Positions 16,764-25,822 of a stretch of DNA of 64,000 nucleotides are shown one piece after another. Under the pieces are notes generated by a model, which saw nothing but the letters and a program-made list of their open reading frames with translations, had not been told where the DNA came from and did no database searches. How positions within the stretch are numbered: position 1 is the first letter of the stretch; each line of letters begins with the position of its first letter. A program made the translations under genes and the position numbers. Origin of the DNA: Wenzhouxiangella sp. AB-CW3 (GTDB lineage: Bacteria; Pseudomonadota; Gammaproteobacteria; Xanthomonadales; Wenzhouxiangellaceae). The stretch is from NCBI RefSeq assembly GCF_014725735.1, contig NZ_CP061368.1, positions 3,549,225 through 3,613,224 on the forward strand. Reading direction: 5' to 3'.

Positions 16764-17738
16764 ATGTATGCTACTCCGCTTCAATGCCGTCGCAAAGAGA
16801 ACAGCATGTCGGATTCCGAAGAAGCCTGGCACTGCCGGGGTCCAACGCGATGGGTCATCCTCGGCAACCCGAACACCGGGCAGGTCTTTGCCTTCAGGGT
16901 AAGCTGGGAACAGTGGCCAGCACTGACGGTGGAAGCCAGTCCGCTTGACACTGTTGAACAGGAGCTCTACCAAAGCATCATCAGCCTGCGTCAGGATTGG
17001 GAAGCGCTGCTGACCGGCTTGACCCTGGACGATATCGACCTTCAATGCAACAGTGCCCACCGCCGCCCCCTTGTTTCGCCATCGGACCAACCAGCAACCG
17101 TGCAAGGTGCCGTGGATTGCCCGGTAGACACGGCCCTGGAAGCAGCCATCGGTCTGCATGCCAACCCCGGCACGACGGCACAGCTGGAAGCCGCCATCCG
17201 CGAGCATGTACGCGACAGCCTGTGCGACTATCAGGACCAGCACCCCTCGGTCGATAGAGTCAGAGGGATCGGCCTAGCCGATGCGGGGAATCGGGGTCAC
17301 CTGAGCTGGGAGCCTACGGACAACATACCCCGGCGTTTGCTGATTGAGGGCACCTCCCCCAACGAGATTGGAGGCAGCGACGACGGCCTGATCTGGGCAG
17401 TGGAGCTCGCCGGCATGATCGGGGACGCCGCAGCAGTAGACATTCGATTTCGCCCGGAGTCGAGCTGGGTGGCCGGAACAACGGTCAGCCGCCTGTTCTC
17501 GGGCAATGCCGCTGTCGACAACCCCTGCGTGGCGCAGAAGTTCGCCAATATTCAGGGTCTGCTCGTCGACTACTATCATGGAACGGGCGGTGACTCTCCC
17601 GTCGATGGTTTTCCCATGTCCCCGCCAACAAGCAACGGAGGCGGACAGTGCTACGCCACCCTGTGCGCGAGAACCGGGGTGGACGGTGAGTCAGCCTCCT
17701 GCCAGTTCAAGGTGTCGGTGGTCAGGCCATGCGAGTGA
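16764..17738 (+). CDS. Secreted-type protein of unknown function, separated from its signal peptide by a frameshift
   Basis: The annotated frame can start only at ATG 16764 (324 residues), but the same frame is open upstream from 16668 and encodes a plausible mature start (QVGYFCSSCINEQSAATQAG) directly after the signal peptide at 16628. The intended product is therefore probably a ~360-residue exported protein. It has at least 12 cysteines, consistent with a periplasmic or secreted location, and several beta-rich segments (RRLLIEGTSPNEIGG, GLIWAVELAGMIGD). I do not recognise the family. A palindromic element begins 7 bp after the stop. Whether the frameshift is biological or a sequencing error cannot be told from one sequence. 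Confidence 0.65.
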   Translation: MYATPLQCRRKENSMSDSEEAWHCRGPTRWVILGNPNTGQVFAFRVSWEQWPALTVEASPLDTVEQELYQSIISLRQDWEALLTGLTLDDIDLQCNSAHRRPLVSPSDQPATVQGAVDCPVDTALEAAIGLHANPGTTAQLEAAIREHVRDSLCDYQDQHPSVDRVRGIGLADAGNRGHLSWEPTDNIPRRLLIEGTSPNEIGGSDDGLIWAVELAGMIGDAAAVDIRFRPESSWVAGTTVSRLFSGNAAVDNPCVAQKFANIQGLLVDYYHGTGGDSPVDGFPMSPPTSNGGGQCYATLCARTGVDGESASCQFKVSVVRPCE

Positions 17739-18418: not shown

Positions 18419-19672
18419 TCACTCGAAGTCTTCGAACTGTGCATCGGAGGCCGGACGCTCGGATTGCATTCGCGCGGCAACGGCCTCGGCTTCGCGCATC
18501 ACCCGCAGCACGTTGTTGCCGAGAATGGCGCGGATATCGTCATCCGAATAGCCTCGACGGATCAGCTCGGCAACCAGCGCCGGGTAGGTGGACACATCTT
18601 CCAGACCGACGGGGACGGTGGTAATGCCGTCGTAATCGCCACCGATACCAATGTACTCGACACCGATACGGTCGCGGATATAGTCGAAATGATCAACCAC
18701 ATCGGCCAGATCGGCCTGGGGTTCCGGGTTGGCTTCCAGCCAGTCGTCCATGCCGGACTCAACCGCATCGGGATGACCGGGGTGCAGGCTTTCCAGGCGG
18801 GCCTGCTCGGCGGCACGCTCGGCACCCCACTGGCGCAGCTCCTCGTTGACGAAGCTGGGCACGATCGTGATCATCACCACGCCGCCATTGTCCGGCAGGC
18901 GGTCAAGTACATCGTCGGGCGCGTTGCGCGCATGCGGTGTCACGCCCATGGCAGACGAGTGCGAGAAGATCACCGGCGCTTCGCTGACATCCAGTGCATC
19001 GTGCATGACCGCCGGGCTGACATGGGACAAATCGATGAGCATGCCCAGCCAGTTCATCTCGCGTACCACTTCCTTGCCGAACTCGTTCAGTCCGTCATGG
19101 CGCGGCGCATCGGTGGCGGCATCGGCCCAGTCATGGCTCTGCCAATGGGTCAGCGTCAGGTAGAGGGCGCCGAGTCGATGGAACATGCGCAGTGTGGCCA
19201 GCGAATTGTTGAGTACGTGCCCGCCTTCCATGCCGAGCATGGAAGGAATACGACCCTCGGCGAAGGAACGCTCCAGTTCATCGGCAGTAGTGACAAACTC
19301 CAACTCGTCATGACGCTGGATCAGGCGATGGGCCAGGTCGATCTGTTCGAGCTGGATACGCACCGCCTCGTCCCCGCTGTAGGCCGGCGGTACATACACC
19401 GACCAGAACTGCGCTCCCAGCCGCCCGGCCCGAAGACGCGCCATGTCGGTGTGCATGGGCGGATCCAGCTCGGTGGTGTCATCGTTGAGATCAATGGCCT
19501 CGAGACGGTTGTCGACCCGGGTGCGGTACTGCCAGGGCACGTCGTTGTGACCGTCGATCAGCGGTGTCTCGGCCAGCAGTTCGAGTGCGCGCTGGTACTC
19601 GGGAGACTGTTCAGCGGCCACTGCCGGTGCGGCAAGCAGCAGGACAATAGCGAGGGGAATGAATTTCAGCAT
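18419..19672 (-). CDS. Exported membrane (renal-type) dipeptidase, family M19
   Basis: A 417-residue zinc dipeptidase that splits dipeptides. The N-terminal signal peptide (residues 1-20, ending APAVAA) places it in the periplasm. The metal-ligand motifs of M19 are in order: LIDGHNDVPW (His42, Asp44), MLGMEGGHVL (Glu), DLSHVSPAVM and FSHSSAMGVTPHARN (His residues). All ligands are present and the length is normal. It starts after a gene-free stretch and stands alone on the minus strand, ~50 bp downstream of hspQ's start. Together with the P1, S9 and S1 enzymes in this window it suggests a peptide-based diet. Confidence 0.93.
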   Translation of the reverse strand: MLKFIPLAIVLLLAAPAVAAEQSPEYQRALELLAETPLIDGHNDVPWQYRTRVDNRLEAIDLNDDTTELDPPMHTDMARLRAGRLGAQFWSVYVPPAYSGDEAVRIQLEQIDLAHRLIQRHDELEFVTTADELERSFAEGRIPSMLGMEGGHVLNNSLATLRMFHRLGALYLTLTHWQSHDWADAATDAPRHDGLNEFGKEVVREMNWLGMLIDLSHVSPAVMHDALDVSEAPVIFSHSSAMGVTPHARNAPDDVLDRLPDNGGVVMITIVPSFVNEELRQWGAERAAEQARLESLHPGHPDAVESGMDDWLEANPEPQADLADVVDHFDYIRDRIGVEYIGIGGDYDGITTVPVGLEDVSTYPALVAELIRRGYSDDDIRAILGNNVLRVMREAEAVAARMQSERPASDAQFEDFE

Positions 19673-20048: not shown

Positions 20049-21221
20049 TTACTTGAGCAGGTCCACGACCCGCTCAACCGGCAAGGCTTCGATGATACGA
20101 CCCTCGTGGCCGGTCATGGTCTCGGCGGCAAACAGGGAATTGAGAATGGCTTCCTCGGTGGCCTCGATGGCGGCCAGGAAAAGCGGTGTCATGGCCGCGT
20201 TGGACAGCTCGGTGAATGCGTGACGGTCGCGGCCATCGTGCTTGATGCGCACCTCCTCGGCGGTGGAAAAGGCGATCACGTAATCGCCCGAGCCGTTGGA
20301 CATGATGCCGCCCACTCTTCCTACGCCCAGCAGCGCCCTGCTGGCCAGGCGTTCGAGGTTGCGGGCGGTCACCGGTGCGTCGGTGGCAATGACAATCATG
20401 ATCGAACCATCGGCATCCTCGTCGTATTCGGTCGGAGAGCGGTCAGCGTTCTGGCCGTTAGGACGCTCATACGGCACCTTGTCGGCCAGATAGTGATTTC
20501 CCAGCCGCTCGCCGACTCGCACTCCGTCGATGGACAGCACGCCACCGAAATTCGACTGCACCAGCACGCCCAGTGTGTAGCCGCCTTCCGATGCCGGAAG
20601 GACGCGAGACGCCGTACCGATGCCGGCCTTGAAGCCCAGCGCTCGTGTGCCGGTGCCCGCGCCGACGTTGCCTTCTTCGACCGGCCCGGTGCGTGCTGCA
20701 TCGATGGCTTTATGCACGTGCTCCGGCCTGATCACACGCGCACGGATATCGTTGAGATAACCATCGTTGGTCTCGCCGGCCACGGCATTGACCGAACGCA
20801 CCGCTTCGTTGCCGTCGAGATTCAGCACCCAGTCGGCCAGCCCGTGAGCGGCCTGGTAGACGCTCAGGGTGTTGGTGAGCGCGATGGGCGTTTCCAGCTC
20901 GCCGAGCTCCTGCACCTGGGTGAATCCGACCGCCTTGCCGAAGCCATTACCGACATGGACAGCCGCCGGTACGCGCTCGGTAAAAGGGTTGTGATCATGG
21001 GGCAGGATGGCCGTGACCCCGGTGCGAATGTCGTCGCCTTCGAGCACGGTGTAGTGACCCACCTCGACCCCGGCCACATCGGTAATGGCGTTGTGTTCGC
21101 CGGGCGTGAGAATGCCGATCTCGATACCGAAATCGCGGGGACGGTCCGTCTCTGCGACCGTGTCTGAGTGGATGCTGGTCATGGCAAGCAGGGTACTGAT
21201 GAGAAAGACTGGTTTGTTCAT
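20049..21221 (-). CDS. Exported P1 family (DmpA/S58) aminopeptidase
   Basis: A 390-residue self-processing N-terminal nucleophile hydrolase of the DmpA/BapA type, which releases N-terminal or beta-amino residues from peptides. Residues 1-24 form a signal peptide. The conserved GVLVQSNFGG element and the autocleavage/nucleophile motif NGSGDYVIAFST (Ser311) are present, so an active alpha/beta enzyme is expected. It stands alone with repeats downstream and the HDAC-like gene upstream on the same strand, 88 bp away. Confidence 0.93.
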   Translation of the reverse strand: MNKPVFLISTLLAMTSIHSDTVAETDRPRDFGIEIGILTPGEHNAITDVAGVEVGHYTVLEGDDIRTGVTAILPHDHNPFTERVPAAVHVGNGFGKAVGFTQVQELGELETPIALTNTLSVYQAAHGLADWVLNLDGNEAVRSVNAVAGETNDGYLNDIRARVIRPEHVHKAIDAARTGPVEEGNVGAGTGTRALGFKAGIGTASRVLPASEGGYTLGVLVQSNFGGVLSIDGVRVGERLGNHYLADKVPYERPNGQNADRSPTEYDEDADGSIMIVIATDAPVTARNLERLASRALLGVGRVGGIMSNGSGDYVIAFSTAEEVRIKHDGRDRHAFTELSNAAMTPLFLAAIEATEEAILNSLFAAETMTGHEGRIIEALPVERVVDLLK

Positions 21222-21309: not shown

Positions 21310-22425
21310 TCAGCGTGCCAGACCGGGTACGGTTCTGGCGAAGTGGTCGCGCGCACGGCGCACCGCCGGCAAGCCGGTGCGGGTGGGCTTGATCGAGGGA
21401 AGGTCGGCATCGGGATCGAGCAGGACATGTATACATTGTTCCAGCGCCTGGCGCATGGGATTGATGTGATACCCCCCTTCCAGCACCATGGCCAGACGCC
21501 CCTGTGCATGGGTTTCGGCCAGGTCCTGCAAGCGCCGTGTCAGGTGAGCGTAGACCGCCGGGCTGAAGCGACAGGCCAGGTGCTCGCGAGTGCCATCGAA
21601 TCCGGCCGAGACGAGGATCAGCTCGGGACGGAAAGTTTGCGCGGCGGGCAGGAGAATCTCGTCAAATGCCGCCAGCACGGCGCGGTCTCCGGCACCAGCC
21701 GGCAGGGGCACGTTCAGCGTGGTGCCCTTGCCGCGACCGCGGCCGATGAACTCGAGTGGTCCGCTGCCCGGATAGAACGGCGCCGACCGGTGGACATCGA
21801 AGAACAGGACGCTCGGGTCGGCAGCAAAAATCGACTCGGTGCCGTCACCATGGTGGATGTCCCAGTCTACAATCAACACGCGATCCATACCGTGTACCGC
21901 CCGGGCGTGACGGGCGGCCACGGCCACGTTGTTGACCAGGCAGAAGCCGCGGTAAGTTGCGGCAAAAGCATGATGTCCGGGCGGGCGCACCAATGCGAAG
22001 GCGGTCTCGGCGCGTCCGTCGCACACGGCGTTAACCGCTTCGACCGCCGCGCCGGCGGCGCGGGTGGCCGCATCCACACTGCCCGGCGATACGGCCGTGG
22101 TGTCGATCGACAACATGCGGCTGCGCCCCCTCAGAGCCTCGAGACGACGCAGATGCACTGGCGTGTGGGCGCGCAGTATCGTTTCGGCATCGGCCCGTTC
22201 CGGCTCGATCCAGGCGATGCGTTCGTCGGTAACGCCCCGCAGGTACTCGACCAGCGCCGACAGGCGTTCCGGACGTTCGGGGTGCTTCCATGGCGACTCG
22301 GCCACCAGGGGACCGAGCAGCGCTCGGAGCTTGCGCGCATGATAGTCGCGAATTTCCGGCTCCAGCCCGGGCGGGCGATGCGCCAGCATCTCGTCGTGAT
22401 AAACCAGGGCCAAGCGGGCGGCCAT
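21310..22425 (-). CDS. Histone-deacetylase-family amidohydrolase (acetylpolyamine amidohydrolase/AcuC-like)
   Basis: A 371-residue zinc deacetylase. The tandem active-site histidines (RPPGHHAF, His151/His152), the zinc ligands Asp189 and His191 in VDWDIHHGDGT, Asp277 in SAGFDG, and the C-terminal LEGGYHI tyrosine motif are all intact. Bacterial members deacetylate polyamines, small molecules or protein lysines; the substrate is not decided by sequence. Its ATG shares one base with the TGA of the upstream 669-residue gene (TGATG), so the two are translationally coupled and probably work on one substrate with the ATP-grasp enzyme further upstream. Confidence 0.93.
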   Translation of the reverse strand: MAARLALVYHDEMLAHRPPGLEPEIRDYHARKLRALLGPLVAESPWKHPERPERLSALVEYLRGVTDERIAWIEPERADAETILRAHTPVHLRRLEALRGRSRMLSIDTTAVSPGSVDAATRAAGAAVEAVNAVCDGRAETAFALVRPPGHHAFAATYRGFCLVNNVAVAARHARAVHGMDRVLIVDWDIHHGDGTESIFAADPSVLFFDVHRSAPFYPGSGPLEFIGRGRGKGTTLNVPLPAGAGDRAVLAAFDEILLPAAQTFRPELILVSAGFDGTREHLACRFSPAVYAHLTRRLQDLAETHAQGRLAMVLEGGYHINPMRQALEQCIHVLLDPDADLPSIKPTRTGLPAVRRARDHFARTVPGLAR

Positions 22426-24434
22426 CAGCTTAAGACCACCTCGTGCCAGGCCTTGTCCGCCGCCCAGCTATCGCGCACGGCATCGGCGATAGCGCCGACG
22501 ATGTCATCGGAAACGGCCAGTGGATCGCCCAGGTCACGCTCGTTGTAGTGGAAGACATAGAGCCGGGCACAGAAATGCTCGAATGGCAGCGAGGACTCAC
22601 CGGGAATCTCGCCGTTTCCCCGGGTGGAGGTGACAATGCCATTCCCCCAATCCTGCCGCCCCTCGTTGTTGGGATTGTAGAAATACACCCGCATCACGCC
22701 CTCGGGGTCTAGGGCAACGCGCTGTATGGCGATGGCGTGCCAACCGACGAACTGGCCGAAGGGGTCGGTGGCCACGATCCCGGCCGGCTGCGGGTAGATC
22801 AGCTCGGCGCCATCGTTGTAATAGGGATGATAGGCGGCATGGAAGCGCCGTATGAAACCGGCGAAATCGATCACCGCCCCGGTGGCGTATTCAATGGTCG
22901 TGGCGAATCCGCGGTGCACCCACCAGCCATGGAACTCGGGGTTGATCCAGCGATGACCGTCCTCGCCACGCCCGGCGATGCGCCGCCCCATCTCCCAGTA
23001 GATCTTGTCCAGGTGCGGCACCAGCAGCAGGGAGACGATATCGAGTTCGGTGTGAAAATCATCGATCAGGCCCTCGGTCAGTTCGCTGGAGCGAATCAGG
23101 TCCCCTTCGAAATGCAGGTCGATCTCGCCATCGCGCGCCGCCCAGGTCACCAGCTCCAGCAGGAATCCGGGGTCGCACTGCGCCCACAAGCTGATGGCGC
23201 GGGCCGACTGGCAGGTGGGATTGTTACCCTGGCTCACGCCCAGCGGCAGGCCCAGCACGCTGATCACTCCGGCCAGCAGCAGGCTGCGCCCGGACGGCGG
23301 GTTGTCATGCCCGAACTCCTCGCGCAGATGTTCGGAGACATCCGGCAGCGGATCGAGCCGGGTCAGCCGCCACAGGGCATGCGGCACCGGCGGGAAAAAG
23401 AGCATCCCGCGATCAAGCAGGTTGCTCAGGCCCTCGATGCACTGGGCAGTCTCGGGCCAGACCGCCTCAAGAATCAGGGCACGAGACAGGTCTTCAAAAG
23501 CATCCAGGCTGTCGGCGCCGACATTGTCCAGCCCCATCGCCAGGGCCAGGTCCCGCTCGCTTCCGCTTTCGGCCAGATGGCGCAGCAGGGCGCCATGGGC
23601 CGGGCAGACCAGGCCTGTGGCATTCATCGTTTCGCCCAGCGCGACCAGTTCCTCCTCGCGGCGCTCGGTCGAAAGGGCCTGGAAGGCAACAACATAATCG
23701 TCGACCTTCCCGGCACTCAGTTCAGTCGGCCCGCGACAGGCCGACACGAGAAAACGGGCACGCTCGACTGCGTCACTGTCGGGCAGGTCGCGCTCTAGCA
23801 GGCGTTCGACCTGGATCAGCAAATGGCGAACCGGTGCGATGTCGATCGGCCGCTGCTCGAGAATGCGATCGGCCTCGCCGACCAGGGCCTGGATCACGCG
23901 GCTGCCACCGAGCCGGTCGAGCTCGAAAGCAAGCAGATTGCGCACTGCCTCACGCTGAGCACCCGCGGCTCGGGCCGCCTCGGAATGATCGACCAGCATC
24001 AGATCGAGGTTGTGCACCAGGCTGCGCTCGAGAAAGTCACGCGCGGCGGCGGCATCCATTTCGGGATGCTCGTGAGTTCCCTCGGCGATTGCCAGCATTC
24101 GCAGACGGCTGAGTGATTCGACAGCGATGGCTTCCGGCGTGCCGGTCAACGATCCGCGTGACAGCTCCGGCTGCAGCCGCGCCGGATGATCCCAGTCACT
24201 GCCGGCAAACACACCCGCTGAGTCGAAACGACCGGCATGACCATGCAAGTGCTCGGCACCGCCGGGCAACCTGAGCAGGCGAGTCGTGGCATTGAACAGA
24301 CGGGGCAGGTGGCCGGCACGGGCAAAGTCGGAAACCGTCGCCAGCGTGTCGAGGGCATGCTCGAACTGCTCCACGGCCCGGGCCAATTCGGGGTTGTCAT
24401 CCACGCCCTGCCCCTGGAAGCGCTGGTGCATCAT
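22425..24434 (-). CDS. Large protein of unknown function with possible Cys-His-Asn catalytic triad
   Basis: A 669-residue soluble protein with no signal peptide. Residues 1-~370 are mostly helical and acidic. The C-terminal half carries QGNNPTCQSARAISLW (Cys408), FVGWHAIAIQRV (His566) and VYFYNPNNEGRQDWG (Asn587). The order Cys ... GWHA ... Asn/Asp at these spacings is how papain-fold and transglutaminase-fold enzymes present their triads, so I suggest a cysteine amidase/peptidase or transglutaminase-like domain; this is inference. It lies between the ATP-grasp gene (110 bp upstream) and the HDAC-like gene (1-bp overlap). I do not recognise a named family. Confidence 0.8.
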   Translation of the reverse strand: MMHQRFQGQGVDDNPELARAVEQFEHALDTLATVSDFARAGHLPRLFNATTRLLRLPGGAEHLHGHAGRFDSAGVFAGSDWDHPARLQPELSRGSLTGTPEAIAVESLSRLRMLAIAEGTHEHPEMDAAAARDFLERSLVHNLDLMLVDHSEAARAAGAQREAVRNLLAFELDRLGGSRVIQALVGEADRILEQRPIDIAPVRHLLIQVERLLERDLPDSDAVERARFLVSACRGPTELSAGKVDDYVVAFQALSTERREEELVALGETMNATGLVCPAHGALLRHLAESGSERDLALAMGLDNVGADSLDAFEDLSRALILEAVWPETAQCIEGLSNLLDRGMLFFPPVPHALWRLTRLDPLPDVSEHLREEFGHDNPPSGRSLLLAGVISVLGLPLGVSQGNNPTCQSARAISLWAQCDPGFLLELVTWAARDGEIDLHFEGDLIRSSELTEGLIDDFHTELDIVSLLLVPHLDKIYWEMGRRIAGRGEDGHRWINPEFHGWWVHRGFATTIEYATGAVIDFAGFIRRFHAAYHPYYNDGAELIYPQPAGIVATDPFGQFVGWHAIAIQRVALDPEGVMRVYFYNPNNEGRQDWGNGIVTSTRGNGEIPGESSLPFEHFCARLYVFHYNERDLGDPLAVSDDIVGAIADAVRDSWAADKAWHEVVLS

Positions 24435-24544
24435 GGTACCTCTCCATCCTTCGCGTCAGCCGCAAACGGCAATGCACTCATTATGCCCCGGCCAGCCCCT
24501 GTGCGATGGGGCCCGGGACAGGTGCAACAGTCGGATCGACCAAT

Positions 24545-25822
24545 CTATACGTAAAAGTCCAGGTCTTCCTGATGCCTGAGCAGATCGCGCATGGTGTGGG
24601 CGTCCTCACCGAAGAAATAAACCAATCCCCAGTGGGTGCCGAAAGCTTCGCGTTCGGCCACGACTTCGTTTTCCAGCGGGTAGAGTTCATGACTCTCGAA
24701 GTAGGGATGCTCGGCGGTTTCTTCCGGAAAGGCCAGCTCGCTGACCACGCGCCGGCGCGGGAACACGCCGAAGCAGCCGGCATGCCCCTTGGCGCCCTTG
24801 ACGGGCTCGGGGAAGAAGGCATCGACTTCTTCCTTCGTTGACTTCGGATCGAACACCACGGCCGAGGCCTGATAGGCATTGAAACCGTAGGCACGCTCGA
24901 TCAACTCAAAGGCCTTGAATCCCGGCGGTCGATAGGCCACTTCGCCGAAGTACATGGTGCCGTCGGAAGTCACGAAGTACTCGGGATGAATCAGGCCGAA
25001 CTTGATATCGAAGGCCTTGATCAGCTTTTCGATTTCCCGGGTGATGGCGTCTCGCCAGCTTTCGAGTTCCGGCGTGGCCGGCACGAATACCGAATAGCCG
25101 AGGGTGACGTACTCGGAAATATTGAGAAACTTGATCTCGCCATCGTGAATCCAGGCTTCGACGGCGAACTCCCAGCCGTCGAGATGACTTTCCATCAGCA
25201 GCGGGAAGTCGGTATCGGGAATCGAGTCGATCTCCTCGGGAGACCGGATCACGCGATGACCAAGACAACCTGCCTGGTCGAAGGCCTTGAGATGAATGGG
25301 GTCATTGGGGTCGCCGTCGAGCTTGAGCAGTGTCTGGTTGACGCGACGCAGAAAGCGGTAGACATCATCGCGATCATGCGCTTCCTCAAACACGCCGACA
25401 CGGATGCCACCGAGGTGGGCGCGGCGCTTCATCAACGCCTTGTCCCGAAACAGAACGGACTGACCGTGCAGGCGTGGATTGCCCATCAGCACCGAATTGA
25501 TCGCCCCGGCCCACTCCACCGTTTCCTCGAACAGCGGGATGGAGACATCGACACCTTCCTTTTTCAGGGTCTCGGCAATTTCCAGCGAGCGCTCGTTGAT
25601 CCGTTCGAAATCCCATTCCAGGAACGGAATGTCGTTCTCGCGCGCGTAATCGGCCGCCCAGGACGGGGCTACCACCACGTAACGCCGGTCAAAGCGCTCC
25701 ATGGCATCGATGGCGTTCAGGCTCCAGCCAAGCAAGGCGATATACCCCTTGTCGGGATTCTTTTCCACGCCTTTCGAACGAATGGGACGCTGAACTGCGC
25801 CAGGCTGATTCTGCTGAATCAT
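24545..25822 (-). CDS. ATP-grasp domain ligase of unknown substrate
   Basis: A 425-residue ATP-grasp enzyme. The N-terminal ~110 residues form a Rossmann-like pre-ATP domain (GYIALLGWSLNAIDAMERF). The ATP-grasp fold follows, with GQSVLFRDKALMKRRAHLGG, the nucleotide-binding LLMESHLDGWEFAVEAW and the metal-binding GLIHPEYFVTSDGTMYFGEV, near PylC/PurK/carbamoyl-phosphate synthase-type members. Such enzymes join a carboxylate to an amine or thiol through an acylphosphate. It is the first gene of a three-gene minus-strand cluster with the 669-residue protein and the HDAC-like enzyme. The product is not predictable from sequence. Confidence 0.88.
   Translation of the reverse strand: MIQQNQPGAVQRPIRSKGVEKNPDKGYIALLGWSLNAIDAMERFDRRYVVVAPSWAADYARENDIPFLEWDFERINERSLEIAETLKKEGVDVSIPLFEETVEWAGAINSVLMGNPRLHGQSVLFRDKALMKRRAHLGGIRVGVFEEAHDRDDVYRFLRRVNQTLLKLDGDPNDPIHLKAFDQAGCLGHRVIRSPEEIDSIPDTDFPLLMESHLDGWEFAVEAWIHDGEIKFLNISEYVTLGYSVFVPATPELESWRDAITREIEKLIKAFDIKFGLIHPEYFVTSDGTMYFGEVAYRPPGFKAFELIERAYGFNAYQASAVVFDPKSTKEEVDAFFPEPVKGAKGHAGCFGVFPRRRVVSELAFPEETAEHPYFESHELYPLENEVVAEREAFGTHWGLVYFFGEDAHTMRDLLRHQEDLDFYV

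Follow-up and report, generated by a model that had tools for sequence, protein, structure and literature searches.

A conserved bacterial gene module of an L-amino-acid-ligase-like ATP-grasp enzyme, a probable papain-like cysteine protein and, in gammaproteobacteria, an HDAC-fold deacylase

Organization of the locus

The window, as the whole 64,000-nucleotide stretch of DNA analysed here is called, belongs to a genome of 3.84 Mb in a single contig, whose nearest relatives, judged by the 669-residue protein described below, are records titled Wenzhouxiangella. Genomes are labelled G and loci L, each with a number, and G000 is the genome of the window. The genes at the locus and the codons of conserved residues are as follows:

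24545-25822, minus strand: ATP-grasp ligase (P0001), 425 residues, L-amino-acid-ligase-like according to sequence search and structure model
22425-24434, minus strand: 669-residue cysteine protein (P0002) with a helical N-terminal domain (about 15-395) and an alpha/beta C-terminal domain (about 396-669) in which putative active-site residues follow in papain-like order
22674-23231, minus strand: codons of invariant residues of the 669-residue protein, Q402 (23231-23229), C408 (23213-23211), H566 (22739-22737) and N587 (22676-22674)
21310-22425, minus strand: HDAC-fold deacylase (P0003), 371 residues, from a clade in which the N-terminal segment is long; its start overlaps the stop of the 669-residue protein gene by one base
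20049-21221, minus strand: homologue of S58 (DmpA-type) peptidases, 88 bases 3' of the HDAC gene
18419-19672, minus strand: homologue of M19 membrane dipeptidases, identified by Pfam search

Read 5' to 3' on the minus strand, the order of the genes is ATP-grasp ligase, 669-residue protein, HDAC, S58 and M19. The initial annotation described the first three as lying head to tail on one strand with the last two sharing a base; the open reading frames are indeed intact on the minus strand, and the stop codon of the 669-residue protein gene and the start codon of the HDAC gene have one base in common (TGATG). The range of 22425-25822 assigned to the trio, however, covers the genes of the ligase and the 669-residue protein and leaves out that of the HDAC (22425-21310).

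Among the neighbourhood loci compared, the S58 and M19 genes are found near the trio only in the Wenzhouxiangella-type loci L018, L020 and L024. The N-termini of both proteins resemble signal peptides by eye, and therefore the two may be peptide scavengers that act outside the module. The S58 and M19 homologues, as well as an M20 amidohydrolase and an alanine racemase encoded at other loci, were considered as core members and rejected, because each adjoins the pair of ligase and cysteine protein in few lineages of the neighbourhoods compared. Genes of a malic enzyme/phosphotransacetylase and of an aldolase, upstream of the trio, look like housekeeping genes. Positions 16764-17738 of the window (plus strand) contain an open reading frame of 324 residues with no match in Pfam.

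The ligase resembles L-amino-acid ligases

The match of P0001 to the Pfam family PF13535 reaches 24.3 bits, which is under the cut-off of 27, and its sequence is only weakly similar to those of RizA and BL00235. Nevertheless, the identification as an ATP-grasp ligase holds, since the predicted structure of P0001 (pLDDT of 82.5) matches the L-amino-acid ligases RizA (4wd3, E 2.2e-23) and BL00235 (3vot, E 4e-20). Structure 4dim is also among the best matches, and BacD (3vmm) is further down. According to the model, the ATP-grasp fold extends over most of the length of P0001 and is common to RizA, BL00235 and BacD, with sequence identities of 14-20% in the structural alignments, a comparison that concerns the protein alone. 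Residues K179, E211, E281, E294 and R298 are invariant in all 35 ligase sequences. The product of RizA is described as arginyl dipeptides in PMC9321006. The ligase of the window thus resembles L-amino-acid ligases, and an amide-forming activity is predicted from its fold.

The 669-residue protein is likely papain-like

Neither Pfam nor PHROGs nor PADLOC has a match to the 669-residue protein. NCBIfam (14.6 bits against a cut-off of 25) and the PDB, where the best match is a de novo design (E 0.0085), gave chance-level matches only. The protein therefore belongs to no recognised family, as was first noted from its sequence. A catalytic triad of Cys408, His566 and Asn587 had also been proposed. 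These three residues, together with Q402, are invariant in all 41 distinct sequences, including that of the window, that have letters at the respective positions; ten of the 51 hits to the family are cut by the ends of their loci at one or more of the four positions and were left out.

The model of the protein (pLDDT of 87) has helices between residues 15 and 395 followed by an alpha/beta domain. C408 starts the helix 408-420, H566 is in the strand 562-575 and N587 follows the strand 581-586, whereas the segment 399-406 has a pLDDT under 50. Papain also has the Q-x5-C spacing that is common to the 669-residue protein and bacterial calpain-like sequences. The sequence contains Q-x5-C, then H and then N-P, like those of calpain/papain-like peptidases of clan CA. 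Papain-like sites are described in PMC10318531 as having a conserved Cys, a His and a third polar residue in this order, where the Cys occupies the N-terminal end of the core helix. As modelled, the 669-residue protein appears to have both the residue order and the cysteine at the start of a helix.

However, the similarity to peptidases is not accompanied by significant sequence or fold matches. In a Foldseek search with the full-length model there was no match at E of 0.001 or below, and m-calpain ranked 47th (E 0.57, probability 0.69); this query is dominated by the helical domain, so that armadillo/HEAT-type proteins swamp the listing. A search of a viral library returned nothing significant. 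Membership of clan CA was not detected by Pfam, PDB profiles or hhalign. Identity as a calpain was rejected at the level of sequence: PF00648 matched none of the 16 C-terminal domains, and hhalign against four bacterial calpain-like proteins gave a probability of 0.3%, even though the Q-x5-C motif was aligned. Because of the missing matches, the 669-residue protein is considered likely, rather than proven, to be papain-like. The proposed triad retains its invariance and its papain-like order in the model, and residue order and topology, not a match to a known peptidase, speak for it.

Co-occurrence of the ligase and the cysteine protein

Profiles of the 669-residue protein (A3, E of 1e-10 or below) and of the ligase (A4, E of 1e-60 or below) were searched against 369 gammaproteobacterial genomes from 272 genera. 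The 669-residue protein is encoded in 13 of the genomes, one of which is that of the window, and the ligase in the identical 13, which belong to ten genera. The chance of drawing the same 13 independently is 3e-24, or 2e-18 when counted by genus, but both values overstate the case because the genomes are related. The two genes are within about 1.4 kb of each other in 12 of the carriers and about 55 kb apart in G345. In the window's own family, 14 of 36 genomes encode the 669-residue protein, and all 14 also encode the ligase. Half a ligase gene and no 669-residue protein were found in one further member of the family, G021, which is 65% complete.

The ligase is also encoded in all ten of the further genomes with the cysteine protein, which are those behind the loci L025, L027-L032 and L034-L036. 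In both G260 and G809, the match to the ligase contains one stop codon. In L028-L034 and L036 the two genes are direct neighbours, and at several of these loci their ends overlap; in L025 and L027 the ligase gene is elsewhere in the genome, away from that of the cysteine protein. The records of these loci are titled Polyangia, Deltaproteobacteria, Vampirovibrionales, Bacteroidetes, uncultured proteobacterium, gammaproteobacterium (L033) and unnamed bacterium. The pair is also present on a Halomonas plasmid of 1.8 Mb, the sole match among 72,556 plasmid records. Protein distances across 17 genomes correlate among the members of the trio (r of 0.76, 0.52 and 0.48, values reached in 0, 0 and 1 of 2000 permutations, respectively), although the correlations are partly inflated because the genomes share ancestry.

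Additional copies of the genes were observed in some genomes. G229 (L053/L063) and G336 (L055/L064) each have two copies of the 669-residue protein family, only one of them beside the ligase. A second ligase copy in L162 (G422:C1:2421783) has no adjoining gene of the cysteine protein and is near genes of a BCCT transporter and a DUF1538 protein.

An origin in viruses or mobile elements was rejected, since no relatives were found in phages or viral contigs and the Halomonas plasmid is the only plasmid record with the pair. An anti-phage defence system was likewise rejected: PADLOC models matched neither the ligase nor the cysteine protein, and the HDAC matched HEC-01A weakly (E 0.0059).

A long-form HDAC clade accompanies the pair

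P0003 matches PF00850 with an E of 3.9e-88 and contains the motifs RPPGHH, DWDIHH, GFD and GGY, which confirms the earlier reading of an intact HDAC-fold deacetylase. We take H151 and H152 to be the histidine dyad, D189, H191 and D277 the zinc ligands, and Y319 the tyrosine of GGY. All of these residues are kept in the 20 long-form sequences, and by them P0003 is predicted to be a classical zinc deacylase.

A search of the same 369 genomes with P0003 (E of 1e-15 or below) identified some HDAC homologue in 211 of them. The 12 best genomes score at least 274 bits with matches that start at residues 1-6, and all 12 are among the 13 carriers of the pair; the only carrier without the long form is G219 (189 bits). 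The best HDAC in the 356 non-carriers scores 240 bits with a match from residue 47, and none of these genomes has the long form. In a tree of 63 HDAC sequences, for which the comparison sequences are mostly best hits rather than a full sample and one (L118) has an aberrantly long branch, the 20 long-form sequences are a single clade with support of 97/86. The expectation that the trio would recur across genomes was thus borne out by the identical 13 of 369 genomes for the pair, 12 of which also have the HDAC clade. The trio is a conserved module and not a chance neighbourhood.

A search of 32 of the 36 genomes of the window's family, all 14 carriers included, found the long form in eight of the 14. 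It is missing in G002, G005, G015, G018 and G033, and G010 has only a fragment. In the wider set of genomes the long form is present in G802 and G803, and absent from G804-G811, which were reached through L028-L032 and L034-L036. Because it is missing in G219, in five of the 14 carriers of the family and in G804-G811, the long-form HDAC is an accessory of the pair. The three genes are at one locus in four of the 13 gammaproteobacterial carriers and in three orders: ligase-cysteine protein-HDAC (G000 and G239), cysteine protein-HDAC-ligase (G318) and cysteine protein-ligase-HDAC (G404). In eight of the 12 gammaproteobacterial carriers with the long form, the HDAC gene is unlinked to the pair.

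The fragment in G010 is a 70-residue HDAC-like reading frame beside the cysteine protein gene (L021:3660-3872), where the gene or the assembly is broken. A small contig of G025 (C191) contains two short stretches that are 84% and 61% identical to P0003; G025 has neither the ligase nor the cysteine protein, and the stretches are perhaps a remnant.

The chains nearest to the long-form HDAC are those of HDAC6, HDAC15 and HDAH, and HDAC10 ranks lower. Position 284 of P0003, which from its offset from the zinc-binding Asp is presumably the gatekeeper site, is Ala in 12, Thr in four and Cys in four of the 20 long-form sequences. None of them has the glutamate gatekeeper that is described for the polyamine deacetylase HDAC10 in PMC5454378. 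The APAH-like sequences likewise have no Glu at this position. Many bacterial HDAC-like enzymes are described as uncharacterised in PMC11532494.

Neighbouring genes point to a polyamine or diamino acid

A GNAT family (A6) is encoded in seven of 28 carriers of the cysteine protein (G033, G804-G808 and G811), and none of the seven has the long-form HDAC. Among solved structures it is closest (E 2e-8 to 4e-8) to a PaiA acetyltransferase and to the N-acetyltransferases 3fix and 3f0a. The PaiA-like GNAT gene adjoins that of the ligase or the cysteine protein in L028-L033. Neither the long-form HDAC nor the PaiA-like GNAT was found in G018, G219, G809 and G810. In G807, G808 and G811, an A6-family GNAT gene adjoins that of an HDAC homologue nearest to acetylpolyamine amidohydrolases (APAH; E 5e-67, 5e-61 and 3e-76, respectively), and the set is beside the pair only in G807. 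A winged-helix domain, MarR-type in L032, is fused to a GNAT adjoining an APAH-type deacetylase in L032 (7392-8489) and L171 (8502-9629).

Another GNAT gene directly follows that of the long-form HDAC in G229 and G336, which belong to one genus. The best matches of the G336 GNAT are spermine/spermidine acetyltransferases (E 8e-12), but GNAT matches with E from 1e-8 to 1e-12 fall within a large superfamily. This type was found in three of 20 carriers, the third of which (G803) has it on another contig, and in none of 40 non-carriers. Genes of amino-acid metabolism also occur near the pair. In L031, argC, argB, argD, argJ and a GNAT gene precede it, and parts of the arg set are in L028-L030, of which argJ in L029 and a gene like argC in L028 were confirmed. 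The position of these arg genes next to the pair may reflect synteny of housekeeping genes. The ligase gene of G345 is preceded by that of an L-piperidine-6-carboxylate dehydrogenase of the lysine pathway. Together, the GNAT, APAH, arg and lysine-pathway neighbours point to a polyamine or a basic diamino acid. The polyamine or amino-acid conjugate suggested in the initial annotation has thus gained circumstantial support from neighbours elsewhere, whereas the make-modify-break pathway itself is one that we infer.

Other neighbours recur in few loci. G219 (L061) has genes of a mechanosensitive-channel homologue, the ligase, the cysteine protein and a BCCT transporter in one direction, and an MNHE antiporter subunit gene follows that of the cysteine protein in L025 and is the neighbour in L052 as well; these hint at a theme of osmotic stress. 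M20 amidohydrolase genes are present in L030 and L031. In the distant records L035 and L036, an alanine racemase gene follows that of the cysteine protein with overlaps of 4 and 34 bases, according to the reading-frame calls.

Proposed function and alternatives

The explanation that we favour, with somewhat less than even confidence, is a conserved metabolic module that would make and break an amide on a polyamine or a basic amino acid, combined with reversible acetylation; its substrate and direction are proposed from gene company and enzyme class. Judged by its fold, the ATP-grasp enzyme would convert a carboxylate to its activated acyl phosphate and then join it to an amine, like L-amino-acid ligases. 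The 669-residue protein, with its Gln-Cys-His-Asn residues and papain-like topology, would then cleave the amide or transfer the acyl group as a thiol enzyme, and its helical domain may bind the substrate or a partner. The HDAC-like enzyme, as its intact zinc-site motifs suggest, may deacetylate or otherwise deacylate an amine, either on the same compound or on its precursor. In several lineages without the long-form HDAC, the PaiA-like GNAT, sometimes together with the APAH homologue, could add and remove the acetyl group. Polyamines and diamino acids, for example ornithine, lysine or arginine, are the most probable amines. It is possible, though doubtful, that a polyamine- or diamino-acid-conjugate cycle exists in several phyla, in which a RizA-like ligase makes the conjugate, papain-like thiol enzymes of a new family with a helical domain break or transfer it, and acetylation and deacetylation, by the PaiA-like GNAT and by an APAH or the special HDAC clade, decide which amine is free. 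If true, this cycle would parallel the glutathionylspermidine and trypanothione systems with a different set of enzymes.

Several alternatives were weighed against this module. By analogy with the N-acetylglutaminylglutamine amide system, the ligase, with a GNAT, might make an N-acetylated dipeptide or amide that serves as an osmolyte and is recycled by the cysteine enzyme or the deacylase. The position of the pair in G219 between the channel homologue and the BCCT transporter, the BCCT gene close to the additional ligase gene of G422, the MNHE subunit in L025 and L052, and the Halomonas plasmid are consistent with such a role. However, salt-loving genomes are rich in osmotic-type genes, these loci are few and were counted without a background rate for such neighbours, and the sole gene of this kind among the annotated non-gammaproteobacterial neighbours is a Na+/H+ antiporter gene in L032; we consider an osmolyte unlikely. 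A role in protein modification is less probable still. A protein would receive an amino acid or a small tag from the ligase and lose it again through the papain-like enzyme, and the HDAC would act on acetyl-lysine, which agrees with the papain-like residue order, the helical domain and the relationship of the long-form HDAC to HDAC6, HDAC15 and HDAH chains. Against it, small-molecule ligases are the nearest relatives of the ligase by fold, and no recurrent small-protein gene was noticed near the pair among reading frames of at least 70 or 100 residues, a length below which a smaller one would escape.

The same low probability is given to a non-cyclic biosynthetic route, in which the ligase and the cysteine protein, as an acyltransferase, would build a peptide-like natural product and the HDAC or GNAT would tailor or protect it. 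Papain-like domains also act as acyltransferases, and the alanine racemase in L035 and L036 and the M20 amidohydrolase in L030 and L031 would suit such a route, but no set of tailoring or export genes recurs across lineages in the neighbour clusters and annotated neighbours. A unit limited to the ligase and the cysteine protein, with the HDAC as a housekeeping neighbour of no relation to it, is very improbable. The absence of the long form from G219, G018, G002, G005, G015, G033 and G804-G811 and its separation from the pair in eight of 12 gammaproteobacterial carriers would fit a bystander. The co-occurrence with the pair, in 12 of 13 carriers and none of the 356 other genomes, makes this reading unlikely, and the three gene orders and the single clade also argue against it.

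Relation to known systems

In the glutathionylspermidine and trypanothione systems, a ligase is paired with an amidase that acts on a polyamine conjugate. The favoured metabolic module would share with these synthetase/amidases an ATP-dependent amide ligase, a papain-like thiol amidase, predicted in the present case, and a polyamine conjugate. The amidase of the glutathionylspermidine system is a papain-like CHAP domain according to PMC10318531. However, ligase and CHAP amidase form one protein in those systems, whereas here there are separate genes, an ATP-grasp enzyme of the L-amino-acid-ligase type, a cysteine protein with a helical domain and an HDAC-like enzyme. Neither a CHAP amidase nor a GSP_synth-type ligase was found here by Pfam at E up to 1, and a glutathionylspermidine-type identity of the ligase was rejected for want of a Pfam match.

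The combination of an APAH homologue and a PaiA-like GNAT in three carrier genomes resembles polyamine-acetylation enzymes of the HDAC10, APAH and PaiA types, but in the window's HDAC clade the Glu gatekeeper is missing, and APAH is a more distant relative than the HDAC6 and HDAH chains. The N-acetylglutaminylglutamine amide osmolyte system combines ATP-grasp and GNAT logic with peptidase and amidotransferase partners. The ATP-grasp and GNAT logic and the peptidase partner have parallels here, whereas the GNAT is separate and its PaiA-like form was not found in carriers of the long-form HDAC. No description of the pair or trio was recognised among the literature matches listed, in line with the initial annotation, which knew of no described system with this trio; a survey of ATP-grasp amidoligases and their gene neighbourhoods from 2009 might mention it.

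The ligase and the cysteine protein, the latter outside Pfam and NCBIfam, are a defined and testable pair, extended to a trio in gammaproteobacteria, with an obvious biochemical question. The finding ties one branch of the bacterial HDAC-like enzymes to a likely pathway.
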